This document shows, piece after piece, positions 3,895-29,484 of a stretch of 30,669 nucleotides of DNA; position 1 is the first letter of the stretch; each line of letters starts with the position of its first letter. A program made the translations under genes and the position numbers. The stretch is from IMG/VR virus record IMGVR_UViG_3300025128_000208, positions 1 through 30,669 of that record; one strand, given 5' to 3'. Below the pieces are notes generated by a model. The model saw nothing but the letters and a program-made list of their open reading frames with translations. It was not told the origin of the DNA and ran no database searches. The DNA comes from a virus.

Positions 3895-5682
3895 ATGGCT
3901 TTAAAGCTAAATGATAGAGTCAAGGAAACTTCGACAACAACTGGAACAGGTACGCTTAATTTAAGTGGTGCTGTTTCAGCGTTCGAGACATTTGTTGCGG
4001 GAATCGGTGATGGTAATACAACTTATTATGCTATTGTCAATCGTGACGAAGACGAATGGGAAACTGGTCTTGGAACCGTAACCGATGCATCTACGGACAC
4101 ACTGGCTAGAACAACAGTTATTTCAAGTTCAAACAGCGATAGTGCTGTTGATTTTAGTGCTGGCACGAAAGACGTATTTTGTACCTTGCCGGCAAGTAAA
4201 GTACCATTTCTCGATGCAAGTAATGATTTAATTCTTGGAACAGGTGCGGCAGGAGTTGATTATTCTCTAAAATTTGACGGAGCAGATTCAGACGGTGTTA
4301 TTACATGGATGGAAGATGAGGATTCTTTCAAAGTGGAAGATGATCTTGTCATGGACAGTTCAAAAAGACTATATCTTTATGATGAAGGTGGAGAATATAT
4401 TTATGGTGACGGAACAGATTTATATTTAACTTCCGGCGCTGATATAAATATACCTGCCAATATTGGCATGACCTTTGGTAATGATGGAGAGAAAATTGAA
4501 GGTGATGGCACTGATTTAACTATCAGTGGAAATAATATTAATTTAACAGCTACTGCGGATGTAGTTATTCCAGCTAATGTAGGAATTACTTTTGGTACAG
4601 GAGAAAAGATTGAAGGGGACAGCACAAATTTAACTATCACCTCTGGTGCTGATATTGCGTTAACAGCTACTTCAGATATCAATGTTCCAGCAGATGTTGG
4701 TATTACATTTGGTGATGATGGAGAGAAGATTGAAGGAGATGGTACTGATTTAACCATTAGTGGTAATAATATTAAATTAACAGCAACTGCGGATGTTGTC
4801 ATTCCAGCAGATGTTGGTATTACATTTGGCAGTGGAGAGAAGATTGAAGGGAATAACACGGATTTAACGGTTACATCCGGCGCTGACATTAACTTGACGG
4901 CAACTTCGGATGTGAACATACCGTCTGACGTTGGAGTTACTTTTGGCAACGACGGTGAAAAGATCGAAGGTGACGGAACAGATTTAACAATTAGTGGCAA
5001 TAATATTAACTTGACAGCCGTTGCGGATGTTAACATTCCATCAGGCGTTGGAGTTACATTTGCTACAACAGAAAAAATTGAATCGGACGGAACAGATTTA
5101 TCAATTACAGTTGGTAGTGGTGGTGATATTAATATTGGATCAGATATTGGTTTAACATTCGGTAATGATGGGGAGAAGATTGAAGGGGATGGAACGGATT
5201 TAACTATAACCGGAAATAACATCAAGCTTACAGCTACAGCCGATGTTGTTATTCCCGCTGATGTGGGAATTACTTTTGGAACAGGCGAAAAGATTGAAGG
5301 AAATAATACAGATTTAACCATTACATCTGGTGCGGACATTGCGCTAACAGCAACAAATGATGTAAATTTACCTAATAATGTTGGAATGGTATTTGGTGAT
5401 GATGGTGAGAAGATTGAGGGTGATGGAACGAATTTAAAAATTGAATCTAGTGGAGATCTTAATCTTGCAGCAGGTGGTTCAACAAATCAAATTAAAATCA
5501 CTAACGGTGCAATCGTACCAATCGCAGATGATGACATAGATTTGGGAACTGCATCTTTACAGTTTAAAGACGCTTACATTGATGGTACGCTGGAAGCGGA
5601 TGCAATAACAATAGGTGGTACGGCAGTCACGGCAGGTGGAGCAACGAAGGGTTTTGCCATTGCTGTTGCGATCGCGCTGTGA
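3895..5682 (+). CDS. Repetitive tail fibre with alternating 38/40-residue repeats
   Basis: A 595-residue fibre-like protein with ribosome site AGGAG just upstream. Residues 1-105 form a conserved N-terminal attachment-type domain (MALKLNDRVKETSTTTGTG, then YYAIVNRDEDEWETGLGT). After a short linker, the region from about residue 183 to 520 is a tandem array centred on an EKIE motif: nine copies start at 4489, 4603, 4723, 4837, 4957, 5071, 5173, 5287 and 5407. Each unit contains DLTI(S/T), NINLTATAD or similar, and IP-(A/S)-x-VGITFG, which looks like a triple-stranded beta-helix rung pair. The C-terminus has IDLGTASLQFKDAYIDGTLE, a motif common in marine phage fibres. No S74 chaperone is visible at its end. 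Receptor binding is inferred. Confidence 0.75.
   Translation: MALKLNDRVKETSTTTGTGTLNLSGAVSAFETFVAGIGDGNTTYYAIVNRDEDEWETGLGTVTDASTDTLARTTVISSSNSDSAVDFSAGTKDVFCTLPASKVPFLDASNDLILGTGAAGVDYSLKFDGADSDGVITWMEDEDSFKVEDDLVMDSSKRLYLYDEGGEYIYGDGTDLYLTSGADINIPANIGMTFGNDGEKIEGDGTDLTISGNNINLTATADVVIPANVGITFGTGEKIEGDSTNLTITSGADIALTATSDINVPADVGITFGDDGEKIEGDGTDLTISGNNIKLTATADVVIPADVGITFGSGEKIEGNNTDLTVTSGADINLTATSDVNIPSDVGVTFGNDGEKIEGDGTDLTISGNNINLTAVADVNIPSGVGVTFATTEKIESDGTDLSITVGSGGDINIGSDIGLTFGNDGEKIEGDGTDLTITGNNIKLTATADVVIPADVGITFGTGEKIEGNNTDLTITSGADIALTATNDVNLPNNVGMVFGDDGEKIEGDGTNLKIESSGDLNLAAGGSTNQIKITNGAIVPIADDDIDLGTASLQFKDAYIDGTLEADAITIGGTAVTAGGATKGFAIAVAIAL
4489..5418 (+). repeat. Tandem EKIE-containing protein repeat (9 copies)
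   Basis: Nine in-frame units, measured from one EKIE codon block to the next, are 114, 120, 114, 120, 114, 102, 114 and 120 bases long. Two unit types alternate: a longer one with the SGADI-like loop, and a shorter one with the SGNNI-like loop, so the higher-order period is 234 bases (78 residues). One unit, starting at 5071, is shortened by 12 bases and is the least conserved (IESDGTDLSITVGSGGDI). DNA identity between units is only moderate while protein identity is high. Confidence 0.85.
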
Positions 5683-14132: not shown

Positions 14133-15995
14133 ATGCCGTTAACAAAACTGCAAATAGCGCCAGGTATTGACAAGCAAAATACGGAATACGGCGCCGAGGG
14201 AAAATGGGTGGACAGTGACAATGTCCGTTTTCGCTATGGATTGCCGGAAAAGATCGGTGGCTGGGCAAAAGTTTCAAGCGACGCTCTTCTAGGAGCAACG
14301 CGAGCCGTTTTGACATGGTCTGATCTCAGTGGCATTAACTATGCCATGTACGGAACCAACAAGAAGCTCTATGCTTATTCAGAGGGAAGCTACGGAGACA
14401 TCACGCCGTCACGCGGAACGGGATCCATTACACAATTTGAAACAACGAATGCCTCAACAGCCGTTACCGTAACGGACGCTTCACACGGTGCTTTGGTTGG
14501 TGATCATGTCACCATCTCAAGTGTCAGTGCGGATGTTGGTGGAATTACACAAGCAAATCTGCAAAATGAATTTGAAATACAAACGGTTCCCAGTTCAAGT
14601 ACTTATACAATAGTGTCTCCAGCCGCGGCGTCATCATCAACGACGGGTGCGACAGCGACAGCGACCTATAATATAAATTCAGGATCAGCAACATCCATCT
14701 ATGGATATGGATGGGGTGCTGGCGTATGGAATGTATCTACGTGGAATTCATCTCGTGAGGGACTGACGGGCGCGGAGGGCGTGCTATTGCAATCATCCAA
14801 GTGGTCACTTGATAACTGGGGCGAAGATGTTTTGGTACAAAAATTTGACGGAGGACTTTATTACTGGGATACATCTGCTGGACTTTCCAGCAATGCGGCG
14901 GCAACAACGAGCGTATCGGCGGGACCGACAAAATCACGGTTCATGCTGGTATCAGGAGATGATCGTCATGTGATTTGCCTTGGAACGGAAACAACCATAG
15001 CGGATACGTCAACACAGGACAATATGTTTGTCAGGTGGTCCCATCAGGAAACAACAAATACATGGACACCGACGGCAACTAATACAGCAGGAACACACCG
15101 ACTGACAGCCGGCAACCAAATCAACATGGCGGTAAGAAGCAGAGGCGCCATCTTAATTTGGACGGATACAGCTTTGTATCAAATGCAGTTTATTGGTGCT
15201 CCCTTTACCTTTGGATTTAAGTTATTAGGTTCCAACTGCGGAGCGGTTGGCATTAACTCTGCCATAGACATTAGTGGCACGTCGTTCTGGATGGGAATTG
15301 ATTCCTTCTTCATGTTCGATGGTGCGGTGAAAAAACTACCATGCACGGTGCAGGATTATGTCTTTGATGATATTAATCCGAACGCATTAGGCGATGTCTT
15401 TTGCGCGGCGAACACGGACTTCAATGAAGTGATGTGGTTTTATCCAACGGAGGATTCATTGCAGATTGACCGGCACGTAACATACAATTACGCGGAAAAT
15501 CTATGGTACACGGGATCACTCGCGCGAAGTGCCTGGGCCGACAGGGATGTTTATTCCAATCCATATGCAACTGAATTTGACTCCGATGACACGACAGCAA
15601 CCATCTCAACAATTTATGGCAACAAGGCTGGACGAACATTTGTCTATGCACAGGAGAAGGGCGTCAATTCGTCCGGATCCGCGATGACAGCCTACATTGA
15701 ATCAGGTGACATTGACATTGGTGATGGTGACCAGTTTATGTCCGTTTCCCGTTTTATTCCGGACTTTAAGAATCAAACAGGAAATGTGGATGTGACCGTG
15801 AAGACAAGACCATACCCGGCAGGAACACAGACGAGTCATGGCTCATATGCCGTTTCTACAAGCACCACGAAACAAGATACACGGATTCGGGGCCGACAGG
15901 TTGCCATTCGTGTTGCAAGTGACGCGGTCGATGAGGACTGGCGCTACGGAACACTGCGTCTGGATATGAAACCGGACGGATTGAGAGGCGGATAA
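14133..15995 (+). CDS. Tail nozzle/stabilisation-like protein
   Basis: A 620-residue protein with ribosome site AGGAG at 14124-14128. Near the start it has LQIAPGIDKQNTEYGAEGKW, then VRFRYGLPEKIGGW at residues 31-44, a signature I recall for the large tail protein of many uncultured marine podoviruses. The body is a series of beta strands with tryptophan-rich blades (STWNSSREGLTG, SKWSLDNWGEDVLVQKF, MFVRWSHQETTNTWTP), consistent with a beta-propeller-like domain as in podovirus nozzle proteins (T7 gp12, P22 gp10 type). The C-terminal part has TYNYAENLWYTGSLARSAW and GRQVAIRVASDAVDEDWRYG. It would bind the adaptor ring and close the tail. The structural call is inferred. Confidence 0.6.
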   Translation: MPLTKLQIAPGIDKQNTEYGAEGKWVDSDNVRFRYGLPEKIGGWAKVSSDALLGATRAVLTWSDLSGINYAMYGTNKKLYAYSEGSYGDITPSRGTGSITQFETTNASTAVTVTDASHGALVGDHVTISSVSADVGGITQANLQNEFEIQTVPSSSTYTIVSPAAASSSTTGATATATYNINSGSATSIYGYGWGAGVWNVSTWNSSREGLTGAEGVLLQSSKWSLDNWGEDVLVQKFDGGLYYWDTSAGLSSNAAATTSVSAGPTKSRFMLVSGDDRHVICLGTETTIADTSTQDNMFVRWSHQETTNTWTPTATNTAGTHRLTAGNQINMAVRSRGAILIWTDTALYQMQFIGAPFTFGFKLLGSNCGAVGINSAIDISGTSFWMGIDSFFMFDGAVKKLPCTVQDYVFDDINPNALGDVFCAANTDFNEVMWFYPTEDSLQIDRHVTYNYAENLWYTGSLARSAWADRDVYSNPYATEFDSDDTTATISTIYGNKAGRTFVYAQEKGVNSSGSAMTAYIESGDIDIGDGDQFMSVSRFIPDFKNQTGNVDVTVKTRPYPAGTQTSHGSYAVSTSTTKQDTRIRGRQVAIRVASDAVDEDWRYGTLRLDMKPDGLRGG

Positions 15996-16963
15996 TGGTC
16001 AGCAAGGCAGATTATTTAGACTATATGAAAGGATCTGGCTATCTAACCAGTCCTATATTTCAACAGGGATTTGAAAAATGGGATCCAAAAGGCATTGAAT
16101 CTTTAATGCTTGAACAAAAATTTGGCTCTCCTTTAAATAAATATTGGTGGGATGCTGAAGGAATGGCAGGAAAAGATACAGGTATGTATGTTCCTGAACC
16201 AGACAAAACCTCTCAAGAAATAAAAAATGATGCTATTAGATTATTTCCAGGAGATGAAGAATCTCAAAACACATATATAAAAAATCAAACAGAAAATATT
16301 ACTAACCCTTGGCAAAAAACAATGGGTCATGAAACTAGCCATTTAGGATTTGATTATGATAACCCATTTAGAAAAGGATTAGCAGAAGTTTATGGAGGGA
16401 TAAATCCTCTTGGAGAAGAAAATTGGAATTATATGCATGATCTTATGTATGGTACTGCAAATATAAATAATCCATGGTATTTGGATTATCAAAGAAAAAA
16501 ATTAATAAATAGAGGTCTATACGATGAAAATAGAGATAGTTGGACACCAGAAACATATAATAAAATTAGAAATTCTGGACTGGTTCCTTGGCAGCAAGGA
16601 ATGCTCATGCAGGGGCCAACAACCGCGGCGGGACAGATTGCACTAGGACAAACGCCGGCTCAGGTACAGGCGCAAGGACAGGCATACGTGGATCCTGATC
16701 GTGGAAACGTACAGGCACCAACAATGACACAGCAGCAAATGGTTGAGGAAGCAATTCAAACAGGCGGAACGGTCAATCCCCATGAGGCGACGCAAGCAGT
16801 ATATACACCACCTACACCTACTGTACATTCAGGCGAAGCATCATGGCAACCAACACCTAGTGTTACTCCAAAACCACCTCCAAGAGATTACACAAAGCAT
16901 AAAGCTTATGGTCTTCGTGAAGGCGGACTTGTTGGCATTAATCACATAACAAGGAGGCTATAG
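15995..16963 (+). CDS. Virion protein with HETSH zincin-like motif
   Basis: A 322-residue protein starting on a TAATG overlap. The N-terminal ~195 residues are AT-rich in DNA and contain MGHETSHLGFD at 110-120, an HExxH zinc-metallopeptidase-like motif, with candidate third ligands E131 or E141/E142 and a further H148 in NWNYMHDLMYG. No signal peptide is present. From about residue 196 the protein becomes Gln/Ala/Pro/Thr-rich (QQGMLMQGPTTAAGQIALGQ) and GC-rich, and it ends LREGGLVGINHITRRL. It resembles an internal or tail protein with a grafted enzymatic domain, perhaps acting on peptidoglycan or on virion proteins. Without a search the protease assignment is a hypothesis. Confidence 0.6.
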   Translation: MVSKADYLDYMKGSGYLTSPIFQQGFEKWDPKGIESLMLEQKFGSPLNKYWWDAEGMAGKDTGMYVPEPDKTSQEIKNDAIRLFPGDEESQNTYIKNQTENITNPWQKTMGHETSHLGFDYDNPFRKGLAEVYGGINPLGEENWNYMHDLMYGTANINNPWYLDYQRKKLINRGLYDENRDSWTPETYNKIRNSGLVPWQQGMLMQGPTTAAGQIALGQTPAQVQAQGQAYVDPDRGNVQAPTMTQQQMVEEAIQTGGTVNPHEATQAVYTPPTPTVHSGEASWQPTPSVTPKPPPRDYTKHKAYGLREGGLVGINHITRRL

Positions 16964-17136
16964 TGGCAAAAATTACTGTTCCTATTTTACCGCAGGCAAG
17001 GGAGGAATACGATCAATCGCAACTCAATCAACTGATTGCGACACTGGAGCAAATGATCTTTATATTGAACAATACCTATACACCTGTCACGTTAGGTGAT
17101 GAGGAAGAACAACGAGCATGGTTCTTATCAGCATAA
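16963..17136 (+). CDS. 57-residue helical protein with GTG start
   Basis: A short gene whose GTG at 16963 overlaps the previous stop (TAGTG) and is preceded by a strong AAGGAGG ribosome site at 16951-16957; this spacing decides the start. The product is MAKITVPILPQAREEYDQSQ, then LNQLIATLEQMIFILNN, ending EEEQRAWFLSA. The 'YD.SQLNQLI.TLEQ..LLN' pattern is familiar from short proteins of marine phages beside tail genes. It is soluble and predicted helical. Its stop codon TAA is immediately followed by the ATG of the next gene. Function unknown. Confidence 0.75.
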   Translation: MAKITVPILPQAREEYDQSQLNQLIATLEQMIFILNNTYTPVTLGDEEEQRAWFLSA

Positions 17137-27579: not shown

Positions 27580-28349
27580 AATTTACATTGACAAACTTAG
27601 CATTATTGCTGATGCTGCTAATATTAGTTTTTATATCAAAGCCCCTCATGGCGGATGATACGAATACCCAGACGAACACGTCTGGTAGCAATACAAACAT
27701 TACAGGTGGATATGAAAGCACAAGTACAACAACATATGAAGACGGCGCAACGAACACAACAACGACGAACAATGACAGCACAAGTACAACCACTAGCAAC
27801 TCAACTGTTCCCCCTCCTTCGGCCAATTCACCAAGTTACTCCAGCATGTCTCAAGATGTGTGTAGCATGGGTGTTAGCGGGTCCGTTACTACTAGTTTTG
27901 TTGGCGTATCTGGCGGCAAGCATTTTATAGACGAGAACTGTGAGCGCATCAAACTGGCGAAAGTGCTACAGGATTTTGGCATGAAAGTAGCGAGCGTGGC
28001 AATATTATGTCAGGATCACCGTGTTCATAAAGCAATGCAATCTGCTGGAACACCATGCCCTTTTGACGGAAAGATTGGAAAAGATGCACAGGCAATGTGG
28101 GACAGGTATCCCGAGCTGAGACCGGATTATGAGAATCATTTGAAAAGAACAGAAATTATTGCTAAAGTTGACGCGGAATTACTAGCACAACAATTAAAGG
28201 AAGAAGAAGCTAAAAAATTAGCTGAAGAAGTAGCTGCTGCTGCAAGAGCACAATTAGAAGCACTAAAAAAAGCGGAAGAAGAGGCAAAATTAAATGAAGA
28301 AACTATTATTATTATTGATTCTGTTCCTGTTGCCATTCACGGCGAATAG
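27576..28349 (+). CDS. Sec-exported protein with four cysteines and helical tail
   Basis: A 257-residue protein with a signal peptide (KFTLTNLALLLMLLILVFIS, cleavage likely after LMA at residue 26). The mature N-terminus (27-85) is Thr/Ser/Asn-rich and low-complexity (STSTTTYEDGATNTTTTNND). Residues ~90-180 contain a compact domain with four cysteines (96, 122, 145, 161), probably two disulfides, and the blocks ENCERIKLAKVLQDFGMKVA and AILCQDHRVHKAMQSAGTPC. The C-terminal part is a long charged helix (KEEEAKKLAEEVAAAARAQL). I recall this type from pelagiphage-like genomes as a conserved secreted hypothetical protein. It starts on an ATGA overlap and itself overlaps the next gene by 56 bases. 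Confidence 0.65.
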   Translation: MKFTLTNLALLLMLLILVFISKPLMADDTNTQTNTSGSNTNITGGYESTSTTTYEDGATNTTTTNNDSTSTTTSNSTVPPPSANSPSYSSMSQDVCSMGVSGSVTTSFVGVSGGKHFIDENCERIKLAKVLQDFGMKVASVAILCQDHRVHKAMQSAGTPCPFDGKIGKDAQAMWDRYPELRPDYENHLKRTEIIAKVDAELLAQQLKEEEAKKLAEEVAAAARAQLEALKKAEEEAKLNEETIIIIDSVPVAIHGE

Positions 28350-29484
28350 CGAGACAGTAACAACCGATAATCTTTTAAACAACTCGACTTTCGGAACAGG
28401 GACCACGTACGATACGACAGGGTGGACCGTTTCTAGTGGCACAAGTGGACATGGTAATACAACCATAGGTGGAGGAAATGCTCCAGGCGGATCTGTTGCT
28501 GCAACAGGAAATACTAACATAGAACAGACTGTGAGCTCCATCAAGACGGCTGCTGGAATGACGGTCAATGAGGTAAGAAAAGGCTGGTCATCAACCATGT
28601 CAACCGATATTTGGTATTGGAATTCCCAGAACAATACAACAACTCTCAAGCAAACAATAACGGATAATGACGGCAACGTTACCACACAGCAACGTATCAT
28701 TACGGATACGGGATGCGGAGGCATCAACTGCGGGCAATATTCCAATTATACCGACACCCACATTCAAGGATCCAATACAAAGGATGACTTCAGCATAAAG
28801 GTAGGCGTAGCAAACTCCAATAGCCTGTCCGGACATTATGGCCCTGACATTGATGATATTCAACTGAAGATTACCTACACGGACGTTCCACCCATCGAAG
28901 AAGATACGCAAGAAGAGCTTGATGAAATTACCGAGGACATTGATGATGTTGTCGAGGATATAGAGGATAATATAGTATGGGAGGACAACTTTACATTTGA
29001 GGAAGAATATGCATGGGAAGAGGATTTTTACTTTGAGGAAGATTTTAATACGGATTGGGAAACATTCGATACAACGTGGGAAGAATATGAAATAGAATTT
29101 GATGATGACATGTATTTTGAAATGGAAGAATTTGAGGATATAGGTATGCCTGAATTTGAGGAGTTTGAAACGGTCATGATGCCGGAGAATACGTTTGAAG
29201 ACATGTACATGGAGGAATTTGAAGAGTTCGAAGAATTCGAGGACGCTTGGGAGATGGAACCGGAGATGACAGAGATGGATACATTCTTTAATGAAATGAC
29301 AGAAGACGACTGGCAGGAATTTGAAGAAATGTCCGAGGATGAATTTACCGAATTTATAGAAGAAGAATTTCCAGAAGAGTTTGCTGAAATGCAAGAGGAA
29401 ATGGAAGAGGCACCGGTAGAGGAGGAAATGGTGTTTGAAGAGGAAGAAGTCGCAATGACGGAAGAACCGGAAGAAGGTTGCTAA
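28294..29484 (+). CDS. Sec-exported protein with extreme acidic C-terminal region
   Basis: A 396-residue protein with a strong signal peptide (MKKLLLLLILFLLPFTANSE), encoded inside the end of the previous gene. Residues ~25-200 form a beta-rich domain with LLNNSTFGTGTTYDTTGW, like carbohydrate-binding beta-sandwiches. Residues 202-396 are dominated by Glu, Asp, Phe, Trp, Met and Tyr (FEEFEEFEDAWEMEPEMTEM) and contain no Lys, Arg or His. The ORF stops at EPEEGC, but the acidic coding style continues in the +1 frame (see 29459-29968), so the true protein is probably longer. A cation-binding, DNA-mimic or surface role is possible but unshown. Confidence 0.65.
   Translation: MKKLLLLLILFLLPFTANSETVTTDNLLNNSTFGTGTTYDTTGWTVSSGTSGHGNTTIGGGNAPGGSVAATGNTNIEQTVSSIKTAAGMTVNEVRKGWSSTMSTDIWYWNSQNNTTTLKQTITDNDGNVTTQQRIITDTGCGGINCGQYSNYTDTHIQGSNTKDDFSIKVGVANSNSLSGHYGPDIDDIQLKITYTDVPPIEEDTQEELDEITEDIDDVVEDIEDNIVWEDNFTFEEEYAWEEDFYFEEDFNTDWETFDTTWEEYEIEFDDDMYFEMEEFEDIGMPEFEEFETVMMPENTFEDMYMEEFEEFEEFEDAWEMEPEMTEMDTFFNEMTEDDWQEFEEMSEDEFTEFIEEEFPEEFAEMQEEMEEAPVEEEMVFEEEEVAMTEEPEEGC

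Follow-up and report, generated by a model that had tools for sequence, protein, structure and literature searches.

A candidate zincin-like metallopeptidase domain on a putatively virion-linked carrier: a conserved HExxH protein family from uncultured phages

Zincin-like domains occur in the polyvalent proteins of phages, which are believed to reach the host together with the phage DNA, and the processing of multidomain polypeptides has been proposed as their role (Iyer et al. 2017, PMC5512222). In MPTase-PolyVal (PF18818), the third ligand after HExxH is an acidic residue of a later helix, and the insert that separates the two helices varies (PMC5512222). The protein described here (the HETSH protein) likewise carries HExxH, but it is a small single-domain cargo with a tail, whereas polyvalent proteins are giant and multidomain, and its second motif is GEExWNxxHDxxY rather than the YAxEELxAE of PF18818. 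In Peptidase_M78/ImmA (PF06114), the HExxH motif aligns with that of the present family in a profile comparison, but the downstream M78 block is absent from the family. The position of the gene, after a gp10-like gene and before tape-measure/ejection-like genes, resembles the P22-type tail order, in which a gp10 hub is followed by needle and ejection proteins, but a search of 50,697 sequenced phage records returned no relative of the gene itself.

The window, i.e., the whole stretch of DNA analyzed, comprises the 30,669 nucleotides of positions 1 to 30,669 of the IMG/VR virus record IMGVR_UViG_3300025128_000208. The HETSH gene is an intact open reading frame with MGHETSHLGFD at residues 110–120, and it overlaps its neighbors by a one-base stop/start junction at either end (TAATG on the side of the gp10-like gene, TAGTG on the other). 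A previous reading of this DNA from the sequence only had reported the same ORF, coordinates and residue numbers, all of which were confirmed. The features discussed below are as follows.

14133..15995, + strand: upstream gene for a P22 gp10-like 'stabilization'/virion structural protein (phrog_3287, E=4.7e-99; matches in 117 phage records)
15995..16963, + strand: HETSH protein gene, 322 aa (ORF with ATG at 15995 and stop codon at 16961–16963)
15995..16600, + strand: conserved N-terminal domain, residues 1–202, from the alignment of eight distinct members (GC 0.32, GC3 0.18)
16328..16342, + strand: HETSH codons (H112 E113 T S H116), putative zinc ligands and catalytic Glu
16412..16450, + strand: second invariant block, GEExWNxxHDxxY, residues 140–152, with the putative third ligand E141 or E142, plus H148 (codon 16436–16438) and D149
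16601..16960, + strand: putative carrier tail, low-complexity and Gln/Pro/Ala-rich, ending EGGLVGINHITRRL
16963..17136, + strand: small conserved gene, 57 aa, forming the other boundary of the insertion site

The GC content was 32% in the domain and 51% in the tail, and the corresponding GC3 values were 0.18 and 0.33. The step from an AT-rich domain to a GC-rich tail, which had been taken as a sign of grafting, is thus real, but much of it follows from the richness of the tail in Gly, Ala, Pro, and Gln. Low GC3 was also common among the other genes of the window.

Relatives were sought in IMG/VR; loci are designated here by L numbers. Narrow peptide patterns used in early scans retrieved L002 as the sole relative, the degenerate pattern GHExSHxGxDY added L087 and L088, and a profile built from four sequences added L109–L119 (groups L109–111, L112–114, L115, and L116–119). 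Another pattern, ENWx[YHND]MxD, matched only unrelated proteins apart from L002. After repeats were removed, the family consisted of eight distinct members including the window protein, to which the other seven were 29–57% identical over the domain; pairwise identities among the eight were 29–64%. The window protein had no match in Pfam, PHROGs, NCBIfam, PDB, phage records or plasmid records, and none of the first four databases returned a peptidase-family match. When every member was compared with Pfam at E<=10, no peptidase, lysozyme or HD family was matched; matches to Ntox47 and T4_RIIA1 fell under the cut-off and were taken as chance. Scanning genomes with GHExSHxGxDY yielded 15 stretches against roughly 16 expected by our own estimate, none of which proved to be a relative on reading, and no relatives were found in 398 genomes from a single phylum or in 61 from a single order, in scans run without a positive control. 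The family is undescribed and is so far known only from uncultured viral contigs.

Since HExxH arose in 0.7% of shuffles of the HETSH protein and the window holds approximately 30 genes, the motif alone is weak evidence, and it is conservation across the family that decides. There was no second HExxH in window ORF segments of at least 120 aa, and the motif was nearly absent from the other ORFs of the family loci. The eight-member alignment contained 25 invariant columns, among them H112, E113, H116, L117, G118, Y121, G140, E141, E142, W144, N145, H148, D149, and Y152. The three HExxH residues on which the sequence-only reading had staked its case are therefore retained in all homologues. That reading had offered E131, E141/E142, and H148 as third metal ligands; the last three are invariant, but E131 varies and was dropped, and D120 was variable as well. 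Candidates for the conserved downstream third ligand expected of a zincin are thus provided by E141, E142, H148, and D149, all invariant. The spacer between HExxH and GEExWNxxHDxxY ranged from 25 to 51 residues across members, which fits a pair of active-site helices separated by an insert of variable length. A PROSITE-type zinc signature fitted five of the eight members, the window protein not being among them.

In a profile alignment, the family HExxH fell on that of M78 with a score of 23.0, compared with 18.0 for the best of 30 column shuffles (hhalign probability 2.6%, E 0.018 for a single comparison), and on that of MPTase-PolyVal with 20.1 compared with 18.4 (probability 1.2%); this control is soft because column shuffling destroys HExxH itself. 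The M78 and MPTase-PolyVal profiles matched each other with a probability of 58%. No member matched MPTase-PolyVal in Pfam at E<=10, and there was no Pfam match to Peptidase_M78. We claim membership in no known peptidase family, only a likely zincin-like mode of action. AlphaFold models from two and eight sequences were of very low confidence (mean pLDDT 51.7 and 42.9, respectively), helical almost throughout, and without a zincin fold in either case; Foldseek returned no matches with these models, which were too poor an input to be informative. The models thus speak neither for nor against a zincin fold, with HExxH on the active-site helix and a small beta sheet, and neither for nor against a clustering of H112, E113, and H116.

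The best relatives of the gp10-like protein in sequenced phages were those of DSL-LC04, the Pelagibacter phages HTVC027P and HTVC023P, and Roseobacter phages, and the genes downstream of the HETSH gene matched tape-measure and DNA-ejection families. The family gene directly followed the gp10-like gene in seven of the eight members (the window, L002, L087, L088, L109–111, L112–114, and L115). In the remaining group (L116–119), the domain lay inside a 672-aa protein, one gene from a gene that we read as the large terminase. Among 78 scorable relatives of the gp10-like gene, 69 had a gap of 3–6 bp to the next conserved gene, and the other 9 had inserts of 566–1723 bp carrying other genes; the junction after the gp10-like gene is an insertion hot spot. 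All 80 relative loci examined lacked the HETSH gene, including the nearest (L007, 87% in the gp10-like gene), which had an unrelated 381-aa gene at the same junction. This absence, together with the other inserts, marks the HETSH gene as rare, movable cargo.

The window and L002 were compared at the codon level. Synonymous sites were saturated in the gp10-like gene (pS 0.76), whereas pS was 0.31 over residues 106–155 of the HETSH protein. Over residues 106–200, 41 of 48 codons were the same against 27.9 expected from codon usage (reached in 0 of 5000 simulations), while the gp10-like gene showed 134 same codons against 119 expected in the same test. The excess of shared codons in the motif core, unlike in the flanking gene, suggests module transfer, that is, that the HETSH module was shared between phages more recently than its flank, or else that its DNA is under another constraint.

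The tail provides further information on modularity. L088 contains two HExxH genes with one small gene between them; one encodes a family member (HEMSH) and the other, gene B, a second protein with THEGIH ... RNEMMTRYLE. No match between the second domain and the HETSH family was found by BLAST, nor did hhalign link it to the window family, but the last 84 residues of the two proteins were 82% identical. Two different HExxH domains on near-identical tails indicate that the tail is a reusable carrier, and the earlier suggestion of an enzymatic-type domain joined to a carrier gains support from this locus. L115 also has an L088-type tail (71%). A GG[IL] motif occurred within about the last 30 residues in all eight members, as well as at the C-terminus of gene B and in the L023 and L083 inserts; in these loci, its density over the final 30 residues was approximately double that inside proteins, a modest enrichment coming partly from the same genes. 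A broader reading, which we offer only tentatively and regard as somewhat less than evenly probable, is that a common C-terminal tail ending in GG[IL]xxL acts as a virion-loading tag for exchangeable, unrelated enzyme-type domains, the two distinct HExxH peptidase-like domains among them, and that the junction after the gp10-like gene serves as an effector slot of these marine phages.

Taken at slightly better than even odds, our preferred reading is that the HETSH protein is a zincin-like metallopeptidase domain of approximately 200 aa on a flexible, virion-linked carrier tail. Zinc would be bound by H112 and H116 and water activated by E113; one of the two glutamates in the invariant GEE block (E141 or E142) would serve as third ligand, with N145, H148, and D149 surrounding the site. 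The carrier tail, with its GG[IL]-type end, would anchor the enzyme on the phage tail or on the ejection apparatus, and the gene, as cargo lodged between the gene for the gp10-like tail protein and the next one, would be exchanged between phages. Judging from gene position and the shared tail, the protein is probably carried by the phage particle, and the enzyme is probably exposed at, or delivered through, the tail during infection. Its target could be a host protein or a cell-wall peptide, or it may process a co-delivered virion protein. The comparisons themselves establish the invariance of the motif, the insertion hot spot, one tail on two distinct HExxH domains, and a core shared recently; zinc binding, peptidase activity, residence in the virion, delivery and substrate are inferred.

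Other functions were weighed against the same data. A non-catalytic structural or adaptor domain, i.e., a tail accessory whose histidines bind metal for stability, would suit a gene sitting between tail genes and the low-complexity or coiled-coil character of the other inserts at the site, which lack catalytic motifs; we consider it improbable, since invariance is focused on polar residues of catalytic type (H, E, D, N, Y) in a domain that is otherwise only ~30–50% identical. Slightly less probable still is a different metal-dependent enzyme, with H112/H116 and H148-D149 making up an HD-type phosphohydrolase or nuclease-like site to which E113 would be incidental. In its favor, H148-D149 shows the same invariance as HExxH and lies 32–36 residues downstream in the window, and the low-confidence models are nearly all helical; against this, no invariant Asp follows D149 as a fourth HD ligand, E113, H116, E141, and E142 are likewise invariant, no HD family was matched, and the second L088 gene has HExxH without HD.

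The two remaining candidates reinterpret single motifs. E113 could be the catalytic acid of a lysozyme-superfamily muramidase with an HE[TS]-type motif, and the first low-confidence model does have a lysozyme-like helix ending just before H112-E113; this is very unlikely given that invariant H112, H116, H148, and D149 would not be required and that no lysozyme family was matched. Membrane-active virion enzymes of the HDxxY type exist in other viruses, and the invariant HDxxY (HDLMYG in the window protein) could by analogy denote a phospholipase A2-like domain. The stretch where a glycine-rich calcium loop would be expected is, however, the variable insert of 25–51 residues, and HExxH would be left unexplained, so that we give this explanation the least credence of all.

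If the metallopeptidase reading is correct, the few enzymes that may travel inside the particles of tailed phages would gain an undescribed metallopeptidase-like family. Likewise, a modular loading tag and swap site, if real, would allow relatives of the phages that infect SAR11 and similar marine bacteria to vary what reaches the host.

Several other features of these loci were observed. At the hot spot, one undescribed insert family (L023:3561–4595 and L083:2192–3088, 48% identical) combines a hydrophobic stretch, PGANIALGGAS...MIPGPLGYLGLGAET, with a GGIVS motif at the C-terminus; its assignment as an ADP-ribosyltransferase was dropped because the HxT motif was not common to both inserts. 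Another insert family (L025, L048, L062, L023:2875–3561, and L079:4846–5568) is Gly/Pro-rich with a coiled-coil-like block, FGEQLxGFGDQMTGYQDALG...LDSVDKGLGSLGNQIASLE. In L112:3809–5398, the HETSH family member carries as an N-terminal fusion a MPFKSEKQRRYLWANEPEIARDW segment, which is probably a small stand-alone phage protein elsewhere. Several large proteins (L087, L092, L111, L112, and L116) have the short motif GGR[VIP]G[FY] in common. In the window, positions 3895–5682 encode a predicted fibre-like protein built from repeats that are almost identical (GITFGDDGEKIEGDGTDLTISGNNI...), opposite which the other strand also has a long open frame, and positions 28294–29484 encode a protein with a signal-like N-terminus and an extremely acidic, Trp/Phe-rich C-terminal half (WEEEF..., FEEFE...).
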